A stretch of 64,000 bases of DNA, from NCBI GenBank assembly GCA_025360005.1, contig JANYDA010000030.1, forward strand, positions 1 through 64,000. The letters are read 5' to 3'. A program made the translations under genes and the position numbers. Within the stretch, counting starts at the first letter, position 1. Every line of letters begins with the position of its first letter. The DNA is from Fibrobacteria bacterium (GTDB lineage Bacteria; Fibrobacterota; Fibrobacteria; UBA11236). The notes under the pieces were generated by a model. That model had not been told where the DNA came from and ran no database searches. It saw only the letters and a program-made list of their open reading frames with translations. Below are positions 5,129 to 11,612 of this stretch, in pieces.

Positions 5129-8100
5129 TCACCGTTTGGAAATCACCAGCCTCAGACCCGATCTCGCCAGGATGGGTTCCCACTCGGATTGGATCTTGAC
5201 GTATTCCTCCGGCGCCGCCACAAAGGGGTCGATGCGCCAGTTTTGCTTGATGGTGATCGATTCGGGGGTATCCTGGTTGATGGAAAGCAGCCAATGCAGG
5301 TAATGCTCGGAAAGCTCCCGGTCCAGGTTGAGGGATTTCCAGCCGTATCCGGAGGGGATCTCGTACACCCATTGGGAGTTGATCTGGATTTCATGGGGGA
5401 AATACACCGGGGCCTTCCGCGAGCCGGCGCGGGGGAAGCGCAGGAAGCTGAGCTCCAGCTTGGGGAAATGTTCAAACTCCTGGAGCGCGTCATGGAAAGG
5501 GAATTTGGCCCGGTAGCGGAATACCATCACCAGGGGCAGGTCCGGATCGTTTTCGTTGAGGACGCGGAAACGTTCGTCCGCGAAAGCGGGATAGCTTTGC
5601 GCCAGCCAGCTCAGCAGGTTTTCGTACTTGGTATTGGGATTCCAATCGCGCATATGCGCCCGGAACTCCGACGCCACCTTGCCGGTCAACACCAGACTGT
5701 CCGATCCGCCCGCCGTTTGGGCGGGATCGACTTTCAGGTTGTGGAAGACCTGTACGCGGTGCTCCCCGGCGCTGTCCAGTTCCGGGATGGTGGCCATGCG
5801 CGAATTCTCATCGTCCACTATCAGCACATTCTTGCCTTCCAAGGCCAAAGGCGAACGGCGGAAGGCGTAGGATTTCTCCGTCGCGTCCAGGAAATATTGC
5901 GGCAGGCCCTTCTGCGCAGGCACGTGCACAATCATATGGTTGAACTGATGGATGCTCGGCTGATCGATGTCGCCCGCATGGTTGAGGCTCACCAGGCACA
6001 GGTGCGCCTCGATGCCGCGGGCTTTGAGCAACTGCATCAGCAGATAAGCATGGCCCTTGCAATCGGAATAGCCGTTGGTCAAAACCGTCTCGCAGCGATC
6101 GGGCACCAAGGCGTTGAGGCTGAACTCGAAATTGTTGTAGCGCACGGAATCGCGCACCAGGCGGAACAGCGTACGCACGGGATTCGCCCCCCGGTTCCTC
6201 TCGATGGCTTCCGAGGCCCGTTCCTGCACGGGCACGGGCACGGAGTCGAAATGGATGCCGGATTTCTCAAGCAGGGCCTGGTAGTTGCGGCCCACTTCCC
6301 GCCAGGTGATGAAAGGCGTGGCGGAAAAACCGGTCCCTACTTCATCGTTATAAGGACGGAAACTCTCTTCCAAGGGAGCCATCGGCTCTTCCATGCGCAC
6401 CACCAGCCGATCGGGGAGGCTGTCCACTTTGGAGTCGCCGTACGCGTTCACCAACAGATGCTTGGGCGGATGCAGGATTTCGTAGCTGCAATTCAGGACG
6501 GGGAAGGGAAAGGCATGATCATAACGCAGGTAAGGGAATTCGGAAACGGGGAGCTGGGCCTCTTCCGTGGTGATGATTTCCAGGAATTGGGCGCCGGCCT
6601 TGTTCTTGATAGGCAAGTGGACCAGCAGGTTCTCCGGATGCAAGGTGGTGTTGTGGCTTTTGGTCACGTAGAATTCGCCCACTTTCTCGTCTTCCACCAC
6701 CTTGCCGTCGGCGTCGTAAAGCCGGAAGGTATTCACGTAGTAACGCGAGTAGCCGGGATTCAATTCATAGGTCAGTTCGGAAAAACGCAGCAACTTCTTG
6801 GCGTCCCGGATATGGTAGAACTGGTGGCGGGTTTTCTTCCAGCGCGTCCTGGGCGCCCACGCATAAACGATATTCTGGGTGATGAGGGTGATGGGATACT
6901 GAGAAGCGAGCTTGAGGTTGTCCGGTTTCCGCAACAGGGCCTGGGCGGAGGCGAGCGTGCCTTTGGTCTTGAGGGGCGTGATGGGGGTCCTCAGGATCAG
7001 GTTGCTGCGGTTGCCCACCAGCGCGGCTATCTGGGTCGCCAATTGTTGGGCCTCGCGATTGGATCCGTCCAAATCCAGCGAGGCTTTCGCGGATTGCCCC
7101 GCCAGCCGGTAGAGTTTCAGGTTGAATTCGCATAGGCCCTTGAACAGGAAATTGTTGGAAGTGGCGGGAAAATTTTCTCCCAGCCCGCGCACGTATTCCA
7201 GTCCGCCTTCGTAGTCCTTCAGCCCCGTCAGCGCGCGCAGGTAATACTCCACGGACTTCTCCGTGGGTAGGGAGTCCGCATGGGTTTTGGCCAGCACCTG
7301 GCGGGCGTTCTCGTATTCCTCCAGGCCCAGGTAGGTGGAGGCCAGGTATACGGACAACCGGAAAGAGGGCTTCTCCGCGTAGCGGCGCAGGAGCACGTTC
7401 TTGGAATGCACGCGTTCGCCCAGTCCCCACAAGGCATCGGAGAGGTTGATCAACCATTCGATGTTCTCCGGATCCAACGCCAACGCTTTCAGCGCCCATT
7501 CCTTGGCTTCCTGGTACTTCCCCAGTTCTTCGAACATGGCGCCCATGGTCCCGGCCAGATCTCCGGAGGCGGTGAGCAAAGCGGGATACTGGGAGAGGAA
7601 TTCCAATCCCAACAGGTTTTCCTTTCGCACCTGGAACATGGCGGCGCAGTTCAGCAGGTAGCCGGCATTGCCGGAATCCGATTGCAGCGCGGTCTGGAAA
7701 TGCTTCATGGCCCCGTTCCAATCGGAGTCTTCCACCGCTTTGAGCCCCAAGGTGTTCTCGATGGCGGCCCGGAACGTCCGCAGACAGGAGTCGGGCGTTA
7801 TGGCCGGTTTTTGGAGCCGGTTTTGCGGCTGGTAATCCAAGCGGATATCCGGCAACTCGCCCAAGCGATCCGGGGAGATGGGCGTCTTGGACTCCACATT
7901 CACGAACAAGAGCAGGCTGTCCCGGCGCATAAGCATGCCCCAATGCTTCAGGGTATCCTGCGGGGGCTTGAACAGGTAGATGCGTGCCTGCGGAGGTTCC
8001 GCCTTTTCGGATGCGGAATCCGGATCGGCCTTGAAAAGATAGGCGAGGGCCGCCATGATCTGGCGGTGGGATTTTTCCTTGGGAAGCGCGGTTTCAAAAA

Positions 8101-8449
8101 TGGAGATTTTCAGCTTTCTGTCGCCTTCGCGTTCGCGTACCAGGGAGCGCACGGGGATGCCCATATCGGTTCGTTCACCCGGCACTTCCAACCAGGCGGG
8201 TTGCGCCGCCTGGAAATTCCAGCCCGCGCCGCTTTGGTATGCCTGGAAGAAACGGGACGATTCGCTTTTGCCCGCTACCGATGCGGGGACGGAAAAGAGG
8301 GTGGAGTCCGCGGCGGCTTTCGCGTCTTTGCCCGGATGCCTCAGCCCGGCACAATCCAGGAAGCCCGCCGCCAAAAAACACAGCGCCGCCAATCGCACGC
8401 AGAAGCCGGACAGGATGCGGTTTGGAAGGAGCGGGGATCGGTGCGCCAT
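5129..8449 (-). CDS. Large exported TPR / DUF3857 / transglutaminase-like protein
   Basis: 1106-residue protein with a hydrophobic N-terminal export signal (about 12-30). A Cys at the end of that segment (FLDCAG) has Asp at -1, so it is not a canonical lipobox. Helical repeats resembling TPRs occupy about 240-470. A DUF3857-like beta-rich region follows (about 515-690), then a transglutaminase-like domain with a complete Cys-His-Asp triad: C797 in GYSDCKGHA, H838 in QFNHMIV and D855 in FLDATEK. DUF3857 plus transglutaminase-core proteins are common in Bacteroidetes and relatives and are exported, but their substrates are largely unknown. Protein crosslinking or proteolysis in the periplasm is possible. 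It stands alone, divergent from the gene at 8550, with 100 bp between them for both promoters. Confidence 0.8.
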   Translation of the reverse strand: MAHRSPLLPNRILSGFCVRLAALCFLAAGFLDCAGLRHPGKDAKAAADSTLFSVPASVAGKSESSRFFQAYQSGAGWNFQAAQPAWLEVPGERTDMGIPVRSLVREREGDRKLKISIFETALPKEKSHRQIMAALAYLFKADPDSASEKAEPPQARIYLFKPPQDTLKHWGMLMRRDSLLLFVNVESKTPISPDRLGELPDIRLDYQPQNRLQKPAITPDSCLRTFRAAIENTLGLKAVEDSDWNGAMKHFQTALQSDSGNAGYLLNCAAMFQVRKENLLGLEFLSQYPALLTASGDLAGTMGAMFEELGKYQEAKEWALKALALDPENIEWLINLSDALWGLGERVHSKNVLLRRYAEKPSFRLSVYLASTYLGLEEYENARQVLAKTHADSLPTEKSVEYYLRALTGLKDYEGGLEYVRGLGENFPATSNNFLFKGLCEFNLKLYRLAGQSAKASLDLDGSNREAQQLATQIAALVGNRSNLILRTPITPLKTKGTLASAQALLRKPDNLKLASQYPITLITQNIVYAWAPRTRWKKTRHQFYHIRDAKKLLRFSELTYELNPGYSRYYVNTFRLYDADGKVVEDEKVGEFYVTKSHNTTLHPENLLVHLPIKNKAGAQFLEIITTEEAQLPVSEFPYLRYDHAFPFPVLNCSYEILHPPKHLLVNAYGDSKVDSLPDRLVVRMEEPMAPLEESFRPYNDEVGTGFSATPFITWREVGRNYQALLEKSGIHFDSVPVPVQERASEAIERNRGANPVRTLFRLVRDSVRYNNFEFSLNALVPDRCETVLTNGYSDCKGHAYLLMQLLKARGIEAHLCLVSLNHAGDIDQPSIHQFNHMIVHVPAQKGLPQYFLDATEKSYAFRRSPLALEGKNVLIVDDENSRMATIPELDSAGEHRVQVFHNLKVDPAQTAGGSDSLVLTGKVASEFRAHMRDWNPNTKYENLLSWLAQSYPAFADERFRVLNENDPDLPLVMVFRYRAKFPFHDALQEFEHFPKLELSFLRFPRAGSRKAPVYFPHEIQINSQWVYEIPSGYGWKSLNLDRELSEHYLHWLLSINQDTPESITIKQNWRIDPFVAAPEEYVKIQSEWEPILARSGLRLVISKR

Positions 8450-8549: not shown

Positions 8550-9929
8550 ATGGCAGGCGGAATCGGCGACTTCAATGTATCGATGGGCAAGGCCGCTGCG
8601 GGAAATCGGGACGGACTGTCCCAGCCCGGATCGCAAGCCTCTCCATCGCGGCAACCTTCGCAGGGAAATCCCCATTACATCGTGTTGATGAAGCGGGCCT
8701 GGGCGCAACCCGGGCCTTTGCGGTTCCATAACGGGGACCTGGAGGATCTGCGCAATCGCTTGCGCCTTACCGCCAACGTGACGCTTCCGGAAATGCCCAA
8801 CTTCTTTCCCGCCGGATCGGAAGCGGAAATGATCTTCCAGGGCCGCAATGTCCTGCATTTGGACACTGCCTTGCGGGAGCAGCCCTTGTTCGCCCACCTG
8901 GAAAGCCTGCGGGATCTGGTCCAGCGCGTGGCCGACCGTAAAGCGGCTTTTCCGGACTTCATCGACGGGCTCAACCGCATTTCCATCCCCGCCTCCTGGC
9001 GGAATGAAATCGTGAACGGCCTCTTCGAGCATGCGGAAACGGCTTCCGCTTCCGTACCGCAACCCAAGGCTCCCGGCCTTTCATCGGACATCGACAAGTT
9101 GCTGGACATGCTGGACCAGACCAACACCGGCGGATCCCAGCTGAGCCCCAGCCTGGGGAAGTTTCTGGAAGAAGTGGGACGGGACAGCACCGGTTTCACC
9201 TTGCGGGACGGGGCCGCGCGCCAATTGCATCAGGACCTGGTGCAAACACTGGCGGCATTGCGCGGCAGCCTCTTGCGTCATGGCGCGTTGGCGGACGCTT
9301 TGGGATTCATGTCCGGGCTGCAACGTTTGGCCAAGGCCGCCAAGGGGCGCGACAGGCAAACCGTGCACTTATGGTCGGAGCTTCCCGAGCACCCGGATGA
9401 TTTGCTGGTAGGGGAGAGCGCCGATCCCGGCTCCCACTTCGCGGTTGCCATGGTGCTTTTGGATCCCTTGGAGTGGGATCCCGCTTTCCTTCGCCTTGCC
9501 GGAGGGCTGGCGGCGCGGTTGGATTGTCCGCTCTTGGTGCAATTACCCGGCGAAGAAATTCCCTCCGAGACGGCCGAACCCTGTATCGCCGCGCTGGCGG
9601 AGTCCGCTCCGCGTAAACGGACTTATTTCTTTTCCGGAGGCGTGGCCTCCCGCGTCGATGGCGAGAGCTGCGTTTTCCGCCCCGCCGCGCTCGCTTTTCT
9701 GGAAGGCGTGGTCGCCTCCAAGGAAACCGTGGCGTTCTACCTGCATCGTTTCATGGTGCTGGAGGATCAGGATCTGATCACGGAAAAAGGCCAAGCCCGC
9801 GCTACCGATCGCCTGCTGGACATGGCCCAACTGGACGCTTTGCGCGCCAAGCGAGTCAATCGCGTGAACGGTGCGCGCAATCGCGGTACTGCGTCGTTTC
9901 CATTGCTCGCCGCTTGGGAGGATGCTTGA
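8550..9929 (+). CDS. Protein of unknown function (459 aa)
   Basis: I do not recognise this family. The frame is open much further upstream, but the codons before 8550 overlap the divergent gene and read as a shadow. ATG 8550 or ATG 8583 are the plausible starts. The protein looks cytoplasmic: no signal peptide and no membrane segment. It has a Ser/Gln/Pro-rich N-terminal 35 residues, a mainly helical middle, and an alternating hydrophobic segment near HFAVAMVLLDPLEWD. That segment is followed by LAARLDCPLLVQLPG and a C-terminal helix ending in LDALRAKRVNRVNGARN. The alternation of short strands and helices in the last 200 residues might suggest a sheath- or scaffold-like fold, but I have no motif to prove it. 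The FHA-transglycosylase gene follows 45 nt downstream on the same strand, so the two may be co-expressed. Confidence 0.7.
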   Translation: MAGGIGDFNVSMGKAAAGNRDGLSQPGSQASPSRQPSQGNPHYIVLMKRAWAQPGPLRFHNGDLEDLRNRLRLTANVTLPEMPNFFPAGSEAEMIFQGRNVLHLDTALREQPLFAHLESLRDLVQRVADRKAAFPDFIDGLNRISIPASWRNEIVNGLFEHAETASASVPQPKAPGLSSDIDKLLDMLDQTNTGGSQLSPSLGKFLEEVGRDSTGFTLRDGAARQLHQDLVQTLAALRGSLLRHGALADALGFMSGLQRLAKAAKGRDRQTVHLWSELPEHPDDLLVGESADPGSHFAVAMVLLDPLEWDPAFLRLAGGLAARLDCPLLVQLPGEEIPSETAEPCIAALAESAPRKRTYFFSGGVASRVDGESCVFRPAALAFLEGVVASKETVAFYLHRFMVLEDQDLITEKGQARATDRLLDMAQLDALRAKRVNRVNGARNRGTASFPLLAAWEDA

Positions 9930-9974: not shown

Positions 9975-11612
9975 ATGCCTGATTATTTCCTGCAAATCAT
10001 TTCCGGCGTCCAGGTAGGGCGCAAAATCCGCATCGCCGAAGGCGTCACCCTGGGGCGCAACCCGGAAAACACCGTCATCTTTTCCGGGCCGGACGGCACC
10101 TTGGTTTCCGGCCAACATGCCGTCATCGAAAAGCGCGGTGAGATATTGATGCTGCGCGATCTGGGCAGCACCAACGGCACCTTCATCAACGGTACCCAAA
10201 TCGCCGAGCATGCCTTGAATACGGATGAAGTGATCAGCCTGGGCGTCAGCGGTCCTAAAATGCGCATGGTGGAACGATCTTCTTCCGCCACCGATTCCAC
10301 CACCATGAAACCGGTAGGCCCGGCTTTGGGCGTTTCGTCCCAGGAGCCCCGCCAGTTGCGGACGGAGTATGAGGGTAAGCGCGCTCCGGGAAAGGCAATC
10401 ACGCCTCCCGGATTCTTCAAGTCCAAAGGCAAGGGATCGTCCGGCGGCGGAAAAGACGGAGGCTCGCAAGGAGGCGGTGATTTCGGCGGCGGGGAGGATG
10501 GGAACGCGGGCAACTATACCATGGGTTTGGCCCAGCGCCTCAAAGACGATGAGGCCGGCAATGAGGAGTTGCAGGATTTGATCAAGGACAAGCATCGGGC
10601 GCAACGCCTGGTGAAAAGCGGGGCCTTGAGCAAGCGCGACGCGATGATGATCCAATCGGCCGCGTCCATGCATTCTTCCCAGAAGAAGCGCGCCCTGATC
10701 ATACTGGGCAGCGTCTCCCTGATCGCCTTCATCATCGTCAGCATCCTGTTGTACCAGAACATGGGATACCGCGGCAAGCTCAAACAGCAGGAATCGCTTT
10801 TGTCCAACGTGCGCAACCTGGAATCGCAAATCACTTCTACGCCGGCCGCCGCCGCGGACGAGCACGAGAAGGCCCTGCTGGTGGCAAAATTGCGCGCGGC
10901 CGAACGCCAATTGATGAGCGTGCGTTCCAACCTGAAATCCTCCGACATCATCAACACCTACAAGAACCCCCTGGGCCGCGAGATCCACACCATACTGGAA
11001 GGCTTCGGCAAGCGCGACTACATCGTGCCGGACATTTTCATCAAGCAGGTGGAAAAGCATATCTACACCTTCACCAAGACATCCACGCGCAATATCATGG
11101 AGCGCTCCTTCGCCAACAGCCACAAGTACAAAGACATCATCGAGGAAGAGCTGAGCCGCCAGGGCATGCCGTTGGCTTTCTATTATCTGGCCATGCATGA
11201 GAGCTTGCTGGACTCCAACATCGTCAGTCATGCGGGAGCCCGGGGCCTTTGGCAATTCATGCCGGAAACCGCGCGCGAATACGGCCTCAAGGTTCCCGAC
11301 GGCTGGGAGAACCTGCCCGCGGAAAGGGATCAGCGCACGGACCCGCGCCTTTCCACCCAGGCGGGCGTGAAATACGTGAAAACCCTGTACGCGGAATTCG
11401 GCGACGTGGCCCTGGCGATGGCCGCCTATAACGCCGGCGAAGGCCGCATCCGCAAGGCTTTGCGCAGCATCGACGATCCCATCAACAATCGGGATTTCTG
11501 GTACATCTACCGCTTGGGCACCCTGGCCGATGAGACCAACGAATATGTGCCCAAGATTATCGCGACCATGATCATCGACAAGAACAGGAGCCGGTACGGG
11601 TTTTCCGAGTGA
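9975..11612 (+). CDS. FHA domain - transmembrane - SLT lytic transglycosylase fusion
   Basis: 545 residues with an unusual architecture. An N-terminal forkhead-associated domain (1-97) keeps the phosphothreonine-binding core: GR at 27-28, SGQH at 45-48 and STNGTFING around 65-72. A Gly/Lys-rich linker leads to one transmembrane helix (about 239-258), then a short coiled region. The C-terminal SLT domain of the MltD/Slt70 type has catalytic Glu 409 in AMHESLLDSN, then GARGLWQFMP and AAYNAGEGRIRKAL. This predicts a cytoplasmic phosphopeptide sensor attached through the inner membrane to a periplasmic peptidoglycan-cleaving domain. A Ser/Thr kinase is encoded at 258-2006, so phospho-control of wall cleavage is an attractive inference. 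The reading frame is continuous, so the fusion is not a frameshift artefact. Confidence 0.9.
   Translation: MPDYFLQIISGVQVGRKIRIAEGVTLGRNPENTVIFSGPDGTLVSGQHAVIEKRGEILMLRDLGSTNGTFINGTQIAEHALNTDEVISLGVSGPKMRMVERSSSATDSTTMKPVGPALGVSSQEPRQLRTEYEGKRAPGKAITPPGFFKSKGKGSSGGGKDGGSQGGGDFGGGEDGNAGNYTMGLAQRLKDDEAGNEELQDLIKDKHRAQRLVKSGALSKRDAMMIQSAASMHSSQKKRALIILGSVSLIAFIIVSILLYQNMGYRGKLKQQESLLSNVRNLESQITSTPAAAADEHEKALLVAKLRAAERQLMSVRSNLKSSDIINTYKNPLGREIHTILEGFGKRDYIVPDIFIKQVEKHIYTFTKTSTRNIMERSFANSHKYKDIIEEELSRQGMPLAFYYLAMHESLLDSNIVSHAGARGLWQFMPETAREYGLKVPDGWENLPAERDQRTDPRLSTQAGVKYVKTLYAEFGDVALAMAAYNAGEGRIRKALRSIDDPINNRDFWYIYRLGTLADETNEYVPKIIATMIIDKNRSRYGFSE

Follow-up and report, generated by a model that had tools for sequence, protein, structure and literature searches.

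The window (the whole stretch of 64,000 nucleotides analysed here) encodes a protein that joins an FHA domain, via a single transmembrane (TM) helix, to a lytic transglycosylase (LT) similar to MltD, and that belongs to a family, hereafter FHA-LT, spread over several phyla. We give about an even chance to the overall reading in which this protein is an inner-membrane LT that serves as the output of a Thr phosphorylation pathway, uses a linker Thr as a latch, and opens the wall for a T6SS-type machine. The features concerned are the following.

66-2006, + strand: Hanks-type Ser/Thr kinase with a PEGA domain and one TM segment (residues 458-476); Pkinase 154.6 bits, PEGA 25.1 bits (cut-off 20.8)
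8550-9929, + strand: divergent TssB-TssC-like (T6SS sheath-like) gene, 46 bp upstream of the FHA-LT gene; profile, hhalign and conservation in the genus
9975-11612, + strand: FHA-TM-LT protein of 545 amino acids; open reading frame (ORF), Pfam, residue alignment and AlphaFold2 model
10044-10244, + strand: FHA domain, residues 24-90; Pfam 57 bits, fold at about residues 1-102, VIA-align Z 17-18
10518-10520, + strand: codon of Thr182 within GNYTMGL, a candidate for the phospho-Thr bound by the FHA domain; linker conservation, phosphorylation putative
10695-10751, + strand: TM helix, residues 241-259; hydropathy 2.96, within a predicted continuous helix 220-288
11136-11468, + strand: SLT domain, MltD-like, residues 388-498; Pfam 90.3 bits, VIA-align
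11199-11201, + strand: codon of the catalytic Glu409, invariant in 29 of 29 aligned relatives

Architecture and membrane topology

A previous sequence-only reading had described the ORF at 9975-11612 as an FHA domain fused through the membrane to a lytic transglycosylase, and coordinates, Pfam matches and hydropathy all agree with this description. Both domains exceed their Pfam cut-offs (20.7 bits for FHA, 21.3 bits for SLT), and the N-terminus M-x-DYFLQIISG is kept within the genus, consistent with the start of the ORF. The consensus pocket of FHA domains consists of G-R, S-x-x-H and N. The window protein has G27-R28, S45-x-x-H48 and S65-T66-N67 as well as Glu409, exactly where the GR/SxxH/STNG pocket and the catalytic residue had been placed, and G27, R28, S45, H48, S65, N67, G68 and E409 are invariant among 29 aligned FHA-LT relatives. 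The segment at 241-259, between FHA and SLT, is the only hydrophobic one, as had also been claimed. No LysM match was obtained with Pfam, and two NCBIfam models remained below threshold, namely the MltD equivalog PRK10783 (93.6 bits, cut-off 508) and the T6SS Fha/TagH model TIGR03354 (30 bits, cut-off 120.25).

In the AlphaFold2 model, calculated from a 17-row alignment (pLDDT 78), FHA occupies about 4-100 and is followed by a linker that is disordered over 103-179; helices begin at 178, one of them unbroken and containing the TM segment, and the LT extends to residue 536. VIA-align rows, which cover model residues 1-102 and 354-540 only and barely touch the linker and coiled coil, matched the LT part with MltD of P. 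aeruginosa (8rhe_A, Z 20.9, rmsd 2.7 over 185 residues, 32% identity) and the FHA part with GarA (6i2r_B, Z 18.0), OdhI (4qcj, Z 17.8) and DgcB (6hc0_D, Z 17.2). By fold and pocket residues, the window protein is a member of the FHA domain family with putative phospho-Thr binding, and it has an MltD-type SLT catalytic domain with its Glu and an MltD-like fold.

Pfam Yop-YscD_cpl also matches the FHA region (35.0 bits, cut-off 33.2), which would fit a fold that is a structural leftover devoid of phospho-Thr binding, as in the T3SS ring protein YscD/EscD, and a purely structural role was weighed for the FHA domain of EscD (PMC1084347). This is very improbable in view of pocket residues that do not vary among the 29 aligned relatives, the linkage to kinase genes described below, and the fit to GarA and OdhI at Z of about 18. 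As for the other end of the protein, the LT domain might act chiefly by anchoring a membrane machine to peptidoglycan, with cutting as a secondary activity, as has been proposed for Myxococcus AgmT, which links focal adhesions to peptidoglycan (PMC11444678). However, no variation is found at Glu409 or in the MltD-type motifs, as would be expected of an active enzyme, and we consider such an anchor improbable.

Exactly one TM segment is present in 74 of the 77 FHA-LT proteins measured, and Lys and Arg are in excess on the FHA side in 45 of these 77, fewer in 13 and tied in 19. As the window protein has no N-terminal hydrophobic stretch, the simplest order of the chain is FHA inside, helix, LT outside. 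Moreover, in two Myxococcota relatives a complete kinase domain replaces FHA on the same side of the membrane, giving kinase-TM-SLT fusions in a single ORF (L186:4609-6537, + strand; L193:1826-3889, - strand). Since kinase activity requires cytoplasmic ATP, these fusions also favour a cytoplasmic FHA side. Judging from these sequence features, the FHA domain very probably resides in the cytoplasm and the LT on the outer side of the inner membrane, so that the topology on which the sequence-only reading had made its proposal depend most likely holds. Each of the two kinase-TM-SLT ORFs is adjoined by a second SLT gene coding for 228-237 amino acids.

Spread and origin of the family

Profile A1 gave matches below 1e-100 in 39 of 167 Fibrobacterota genomes, followed by a gap down to 1e-57, where ordinary MltD-like proteins start. 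FHA and SLT are found in one ORF in 36 of these 39 genomes, and one further case is truncated by a contig end, leaving two outside the FHA count. The large family f4, for which we use the inferred name Fibrobacter, has the MltD-like form only. FHA-LTs are also present in 15 of 195 genomes (22 loci) from the phylum of a Myxococcota genome, and in eight of 247 from the phylum of an Ignavibacteria genome (G173), with FHA and SLT in all eight. In Acidobacteriota (the phylum of a Holophagales genome), the TM-LT part occurs in eight of 347 genomes, with an FHA that is intact in four, degenerate in one and undetected in three; in the Acidobacteriota loci L188, L189 and L191, FHA is lost or a remnant and TM and LT are retained. 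Among 191 Bdellovibrionota genomes, none had a full match at E<=1e-72, apart from one MltD-like match.

The chance origin of this architecture is excluded because it is retained across phyla at 25-45% identity, and we regard the FHA-TM-LT architecture as real, with hardly any room for doubt. A one-off fusion is rejected by the breadth of the family over several phyla, and a restriction to Fibrobacterota was dropped when the Acidobacteriota copies turned up. FHA is not a general feature of MltD-like LTs either, as a family-tuned profile detected it in none of the 64 best LT relatives from other phyla (set A2; best E 1.3), 53 of which have LysM, and it is absent from the 25 of 32 Pfam families listed for them. 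Concerning convergent fusions, the LT-domain tree does not reject a single origin (p-AU 0.69), a result to be read as non-rejection only. A role in anti-phage defence was also discarded, PADLOC giving no match for FHA-LT and generic matches for the kinases.

Genome searches with profiles recover a family in Fibrobacterota, Acidobacteriota, Myxococcota and the phylum of G173, and neither a characterised case nor a description of the architecture was found in the open-access literature. The breadth of the family, the conserved linker Thr and the T6SS-type context described below were all absent from the sequence-only reading. The window genome also has a second FHA-TM-LT (G000:C12:30066-31589; L006, L144) of about 42% identity, and such a second copy exists in all six members of the window genus examined.

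Kinase genes and the juxtamembrane Thr

The PEGA-domain Ser/Thr kinase reported about 8 kb away is indeed present: its ORF has HRD at 216 and DFG at 236, and ends 7,968 bp upstream of the FHA-LT gene, a spacing also observed in L041 and L042. It is one of 16 kinase matches in the window genome, and a possible partner of the FHA-LT. The path proposed earlier from phosphorylation to peptidoglycan is supported in part, as regards the likely opposite sides of the membrane and, strongly, a family-wide link to Ser/Thr kinases; this particular kinase would be one candidate partner, and PEGA kinases do occur in FHA-LT operons of G173's phylum.

A Hanks-type kinase gene is found within 2 kb of FHA-LT in 26 of 78 loci, where we estimate that chance would account for a few per cent (18 genomes have 8-31 kinase matches each); these counts are not independent, since many loci are related and flank lengths are uneven, but the arrangements do differ. 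Such proximity is observed for 16 of 22 main copies of Fibrobacterota other than the window genus and for none of five in that genus, for none of six second copies in the genus and two of three elsewhere, for none of seven short termite-gut forms, for one of five loci in Acidobacteriota and one of 22 in Myxococcota, and for six of eight in G173's phylum. In 14 of the 22 main loci of non-genus Fibrobacterota, the kinase gene directly precedes FHA-LT on the same strand, and it is a CHASE2 kinase in all three Fibrobacterota loci scanned with Pfam, in the one-strand arrangement FecR gene, CHASE2 kinase, FHA-LT. The FecR genes are conserved immediately ahead of the CHASE2 kinase (L045:6519-7607, also with LysM; L049:2990-3973; and equivalents), and could be envelope sensors. 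Further arrangements are a divergent kinase 181 bp from FHA-LT (L140), convergent kinases at 10-12 bp (L151, L152), a kinase 3 bp downstream in Acidobacteriota (L161), and a TPR kinase 6 bp upstream in Myxococcota (L175).

In six of the eight loci of G173's phylum (L195, L196, L198-L201), the gene order is FHA-LT, PP2C, kinase; Pfam, run on part of these six, found PEGA in the kinases of L196 and L200 and did not report it in that of L199. A PppA-like partner is not seen in the Fibrobacterota genomes searched, because PP2C searches were nearly all blank there (PF13672 in none of five genomes tested, PF00481 in one of nine, G154), the window genome having no PP2C match. Overall, the gene neighbourhoods, the kinase-LT fusions and the FHA-LT/PP2C/kinase operons indicate that the family is likely under the control of a Thr-kinase pathway.

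Position 182 is Thr in at least 90% of alignment A1, in a linker that is otherwise variable and in which this Thr and the hydrophobic residue at +3 are kept close to the membrane. Of the 68 proteins in which FHA is intact and the linker could be measured, 55 show Thr-x-x-hydrophobic at the expected site against 15.6 expected from linker shuffling, a looser pattern that was defined after the alignments had been viewed and of which two matches, in the short forms L156 and L159, appear fortuitous; the strict pattern T-[MILVF]-x-[MILVF] is found in 44 of 66 linkers, against 18.2 expected. The motif reads GNYTMGL in the window, SKTIEFEKK and similar in Chitinispirillia, SGQTMFIMADTL in Myxococcota, and AGERTMMIRRAF-like in Acidobacteriota and G173's phylum, positions in Acidobacteriota being taken relative to TM as MAFFT misplaced the Thr site there. 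Its distance from TM is constant even in linkers of about 560-590 residues (L198, L199, L201).

The Thr motif is absent from the six second copies of the window genus, most short termite-gut forms, L185 and the kinase-LT fusions, and is retained in L187 and L188 despite a degenerate or missing FHA. In place of the Thr182 site, these six second copies have a Thr-rich patch, R-[EQD]-T-T-[STA] (R-E-T-T-S-M after the FHA domain in the window genome), which we take to resemble the ETTS phospho-site of GarA/OdhI. FHA domains demand phospho-Thr, with pTxx[I/L/V] as one of two listed motif classes (PMC8786283), and by analogy the linker Thr-x-x-hydrophobic would match this class of ligands. Helix capping would be a plainer explanation for an invariant Thr at this site, as the model has a helix beginning at 178.

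A self-binding latch, where FHA would bind the phospho-Thr of the linker, is a hypothesis whose chances, in our view, fall just short of even. In an alternative reading, the linker Thr is uninvolved and FHA serves only to position the LT, by binding to a phospho-Thr of a partner protein (the kinase itself, TssL or a different envelope protein); FHA domains generally act as recruiters. The Fha of Agrobacterium binds phospho-Thr14 of TssL (PMC3953482), and we grant positioning alone an appreciable chance, if clearly below even. Against it, the juxtamembrane Thr-x-x-hydrophobic is kept across phyla in a variable linker, and FHA self-ligands are known, DgcB being activated by its own N-terminal region (PMC6733907).

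According to the latch reading, a Hanks-type kinase would phosphorylate a Thr, most likely the juxtamembrane Thr182, either in the FHA-LT molecule itself or in an adjacent one, and the FHA domain would capture it. The resulting change in assembly or position would be transmitted via the continuous juxtamembrane-TM-coiled-coil helix to control the activity or position of the LT, and the periplasmic MltD-like domain would confine its cleavage of peptidoglycan to the times and sites of pathway activity. In the window lineage, the likely use would be wall opening for a T6SS-type contractile machine.

T6SS-type context and comparison with known systems

The ORF upstream of the window FHA-LT gene opens at 8055, with a likely start at 8550. 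It matched a profile of TssB-TssC fusions (cbc) with E 2e-10 among 10,252 ORFs, and hhalign gave a probability of 97.8% over 358 columns (E 1.1e-12), whereas five controls with shuffled columns reached 0.1-1.3%. Its position next to FHA-LT is kept in the genus (window and four homologues). Pfam was blank at E<=1. The AlphaFold model (mean pLDDT 53) is neutral, since Foldseek found nothing at E<=0.001 and ranked a T6SS sheath chain 23rd (E 0.46). Window positions 5129-8449 (- strand) hold a gene for 1106 amino acids in which TPR repeats exceed their cut-off, while a weak transglutaminase-like match falls below its own.

In six Fibrobacterota loci (L133, L135, L137, L138, L139, L155), tss genes adjoin FHA-LT: TssA, TssB and TssC are present in all six, Pfam having been run on one cluster, and Hcp and TssF in all but L133, of which the copy L048 also shows Hcp. 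A TssB-TssC fusion gene lies directly upstream in six of eight loci of G173's phylum (VipA and VipB by Pfam on one), and RHS-repeat and DUF2169 genes immediately precede it at L195:3-3961. TssBC-like genes are upstream at 11 further loci, the window counted, where the divergent ORFs stand directly before the FHA-LT or FecR-kinase-FHA-LT unit; two of those in Chitinispirillia exceed the Pfam VipA cut-off. Run on 4,941 flank ORFs at E<0.1, the fusion profile otherwise found only canonical TssB/TssC and divergent upstream ORFs. In total, T6SS genes or a TssB-TssC-like sheath gene occur at 23 of 78 FHA-LT loci, and five (L195, L196, L198, L199, L201) combine kinase, PP2C, FHA and T6SS genes; the window locus has its kinase 8 kb off, the TssBC-like gene upstream, and no PP2C found. 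In Chitinispirillia, a radical SAM gene is kept directly after FHA-LT (L045:11642-12649, L050:11674-12702).

The family might instead serve wall growth or division in general, as an LT under kinase control, T6SS adjacency being operon drift limited to some lineages. Around the 27 copies from Myxococcota and Acidobacteriota, of which two have a kinase within 2 kb, no T6SS genes were detected, and the neighbours of some Myxococcota FHA-LTs are AAA ATPase and DUF1257 genes in the place of T6SS genes (L169:3096-6196, L181:8520-9329). In the window genome, one T6SS cluster (TssA, TssB, TssC, Hcp, TssF, TssG) was found in a search of about one third of the sequence (1.65 Mb of slices, overlaps counted), on a different contig (C32) and unlinked to FHA-LT. 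Drift is nevertheless difficult to reconcile with TssBC-like or tss genes recurring in several separate lineages and arrangements, and with solitary divergent TssBC-like genes holding the directly upstream position, and we consider a general wall role rather unlikely. We therefore lean towards a tie between FHA-LT and a T6SS-type machine in the window lineage, as suggested by gene context; service to such a machine is most likely in Fibrobacterota and G173's phylum, and Myxococcota and Acidobacteriota may use their FHA-LTs differently. The most general form of the proposal, with FHA-LTs as one-protein transmembrane phospho-switches of several phyla that, by cis or intersubunit capture, license cuts originally or chiefly for a T6SS sheath machine, is decidedly tentative.

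The broader question is how bacteria restrict peptidoglycan opening to the time and site of envelope-machine assembly. If the reading proposed here is true, FHA-LT would give T6SS an LT of its own that is gated by phosphorylation, and would be a rare transmembrane output for Hanks-type kinases, in phyla where genetics is almost absent. As a phospho-Thr reader is joined to a wall-cutting enzyme, the link from kinase to wall opening would be directly testable by point mutants of R28, S45, T182 and E409, and relatives are available in Myxococcota and G173's phylum.

The T6SS Thr phosphorylation pathway has as parts the PpkA kinase, the PppA PP2C phosphatase and Fha1 (PMC10433429, PMC10482370). 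Peptidoglycan opening in T6SS is described as relying on MltE, recruited by TssM, or on TagX, enteroaggregative E. coli borrowing MltE, and specialised LTs as the exception in T6SS clusters (PMC10433429). We read the FHA-LT family as phosphorylation-gated wall openers because its FHA, kinase and PP2C genes beside sheath genes are the parts of that pathway, because specialised T6SS LTs are exceptional, and because E. coli borrows MltE. The scheme would thus merge the PpkA/PppA/Fha logic with a dedicated LT. Unlike in that pathway, where a cytoplasmic Fha or TssL is the target, the FHA protein is here itself a membrane-anchored LT, which we read as the new element, and PP2C was not found for the window genome. 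In contrast to MltE, which has housekeeping functions, and to the endopeptidase TagX, FHA-LT would be a dedicated LT with a phospho-sensor.

DgcB of Bdellovibrio (FHA-GGDEF) is also a fusion of FHA to an enzyme, self-activated by an N-terminal phosphopeptide (PMC6733907), but its output is a cyclase rather than a cell-wall enzyme across the membrane. MltD of P. aeruginosa (8rhe) and E. coli shares the catalytic fold and motifs with FHA-LT, which differs in having no LysM, in scoring below the equivalog cut-off, and in carrying FHA and TM at its N-terminal side. Among Hanks kinase pathways, PknB-CwlM reportedly acts on a cell-wall hydrolase-type protein. In C. difficile, the Hanks kinase PrkC phosphorylates CwlA, and the export of CwlA changes (PMC8262956). 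Both pathways resemble the present proposal in the action of a Hanks kinase on hydrolase-type proteins, and what distinguishes FHA-LT from them is the fusion of FHA and enzyme across the membrane.
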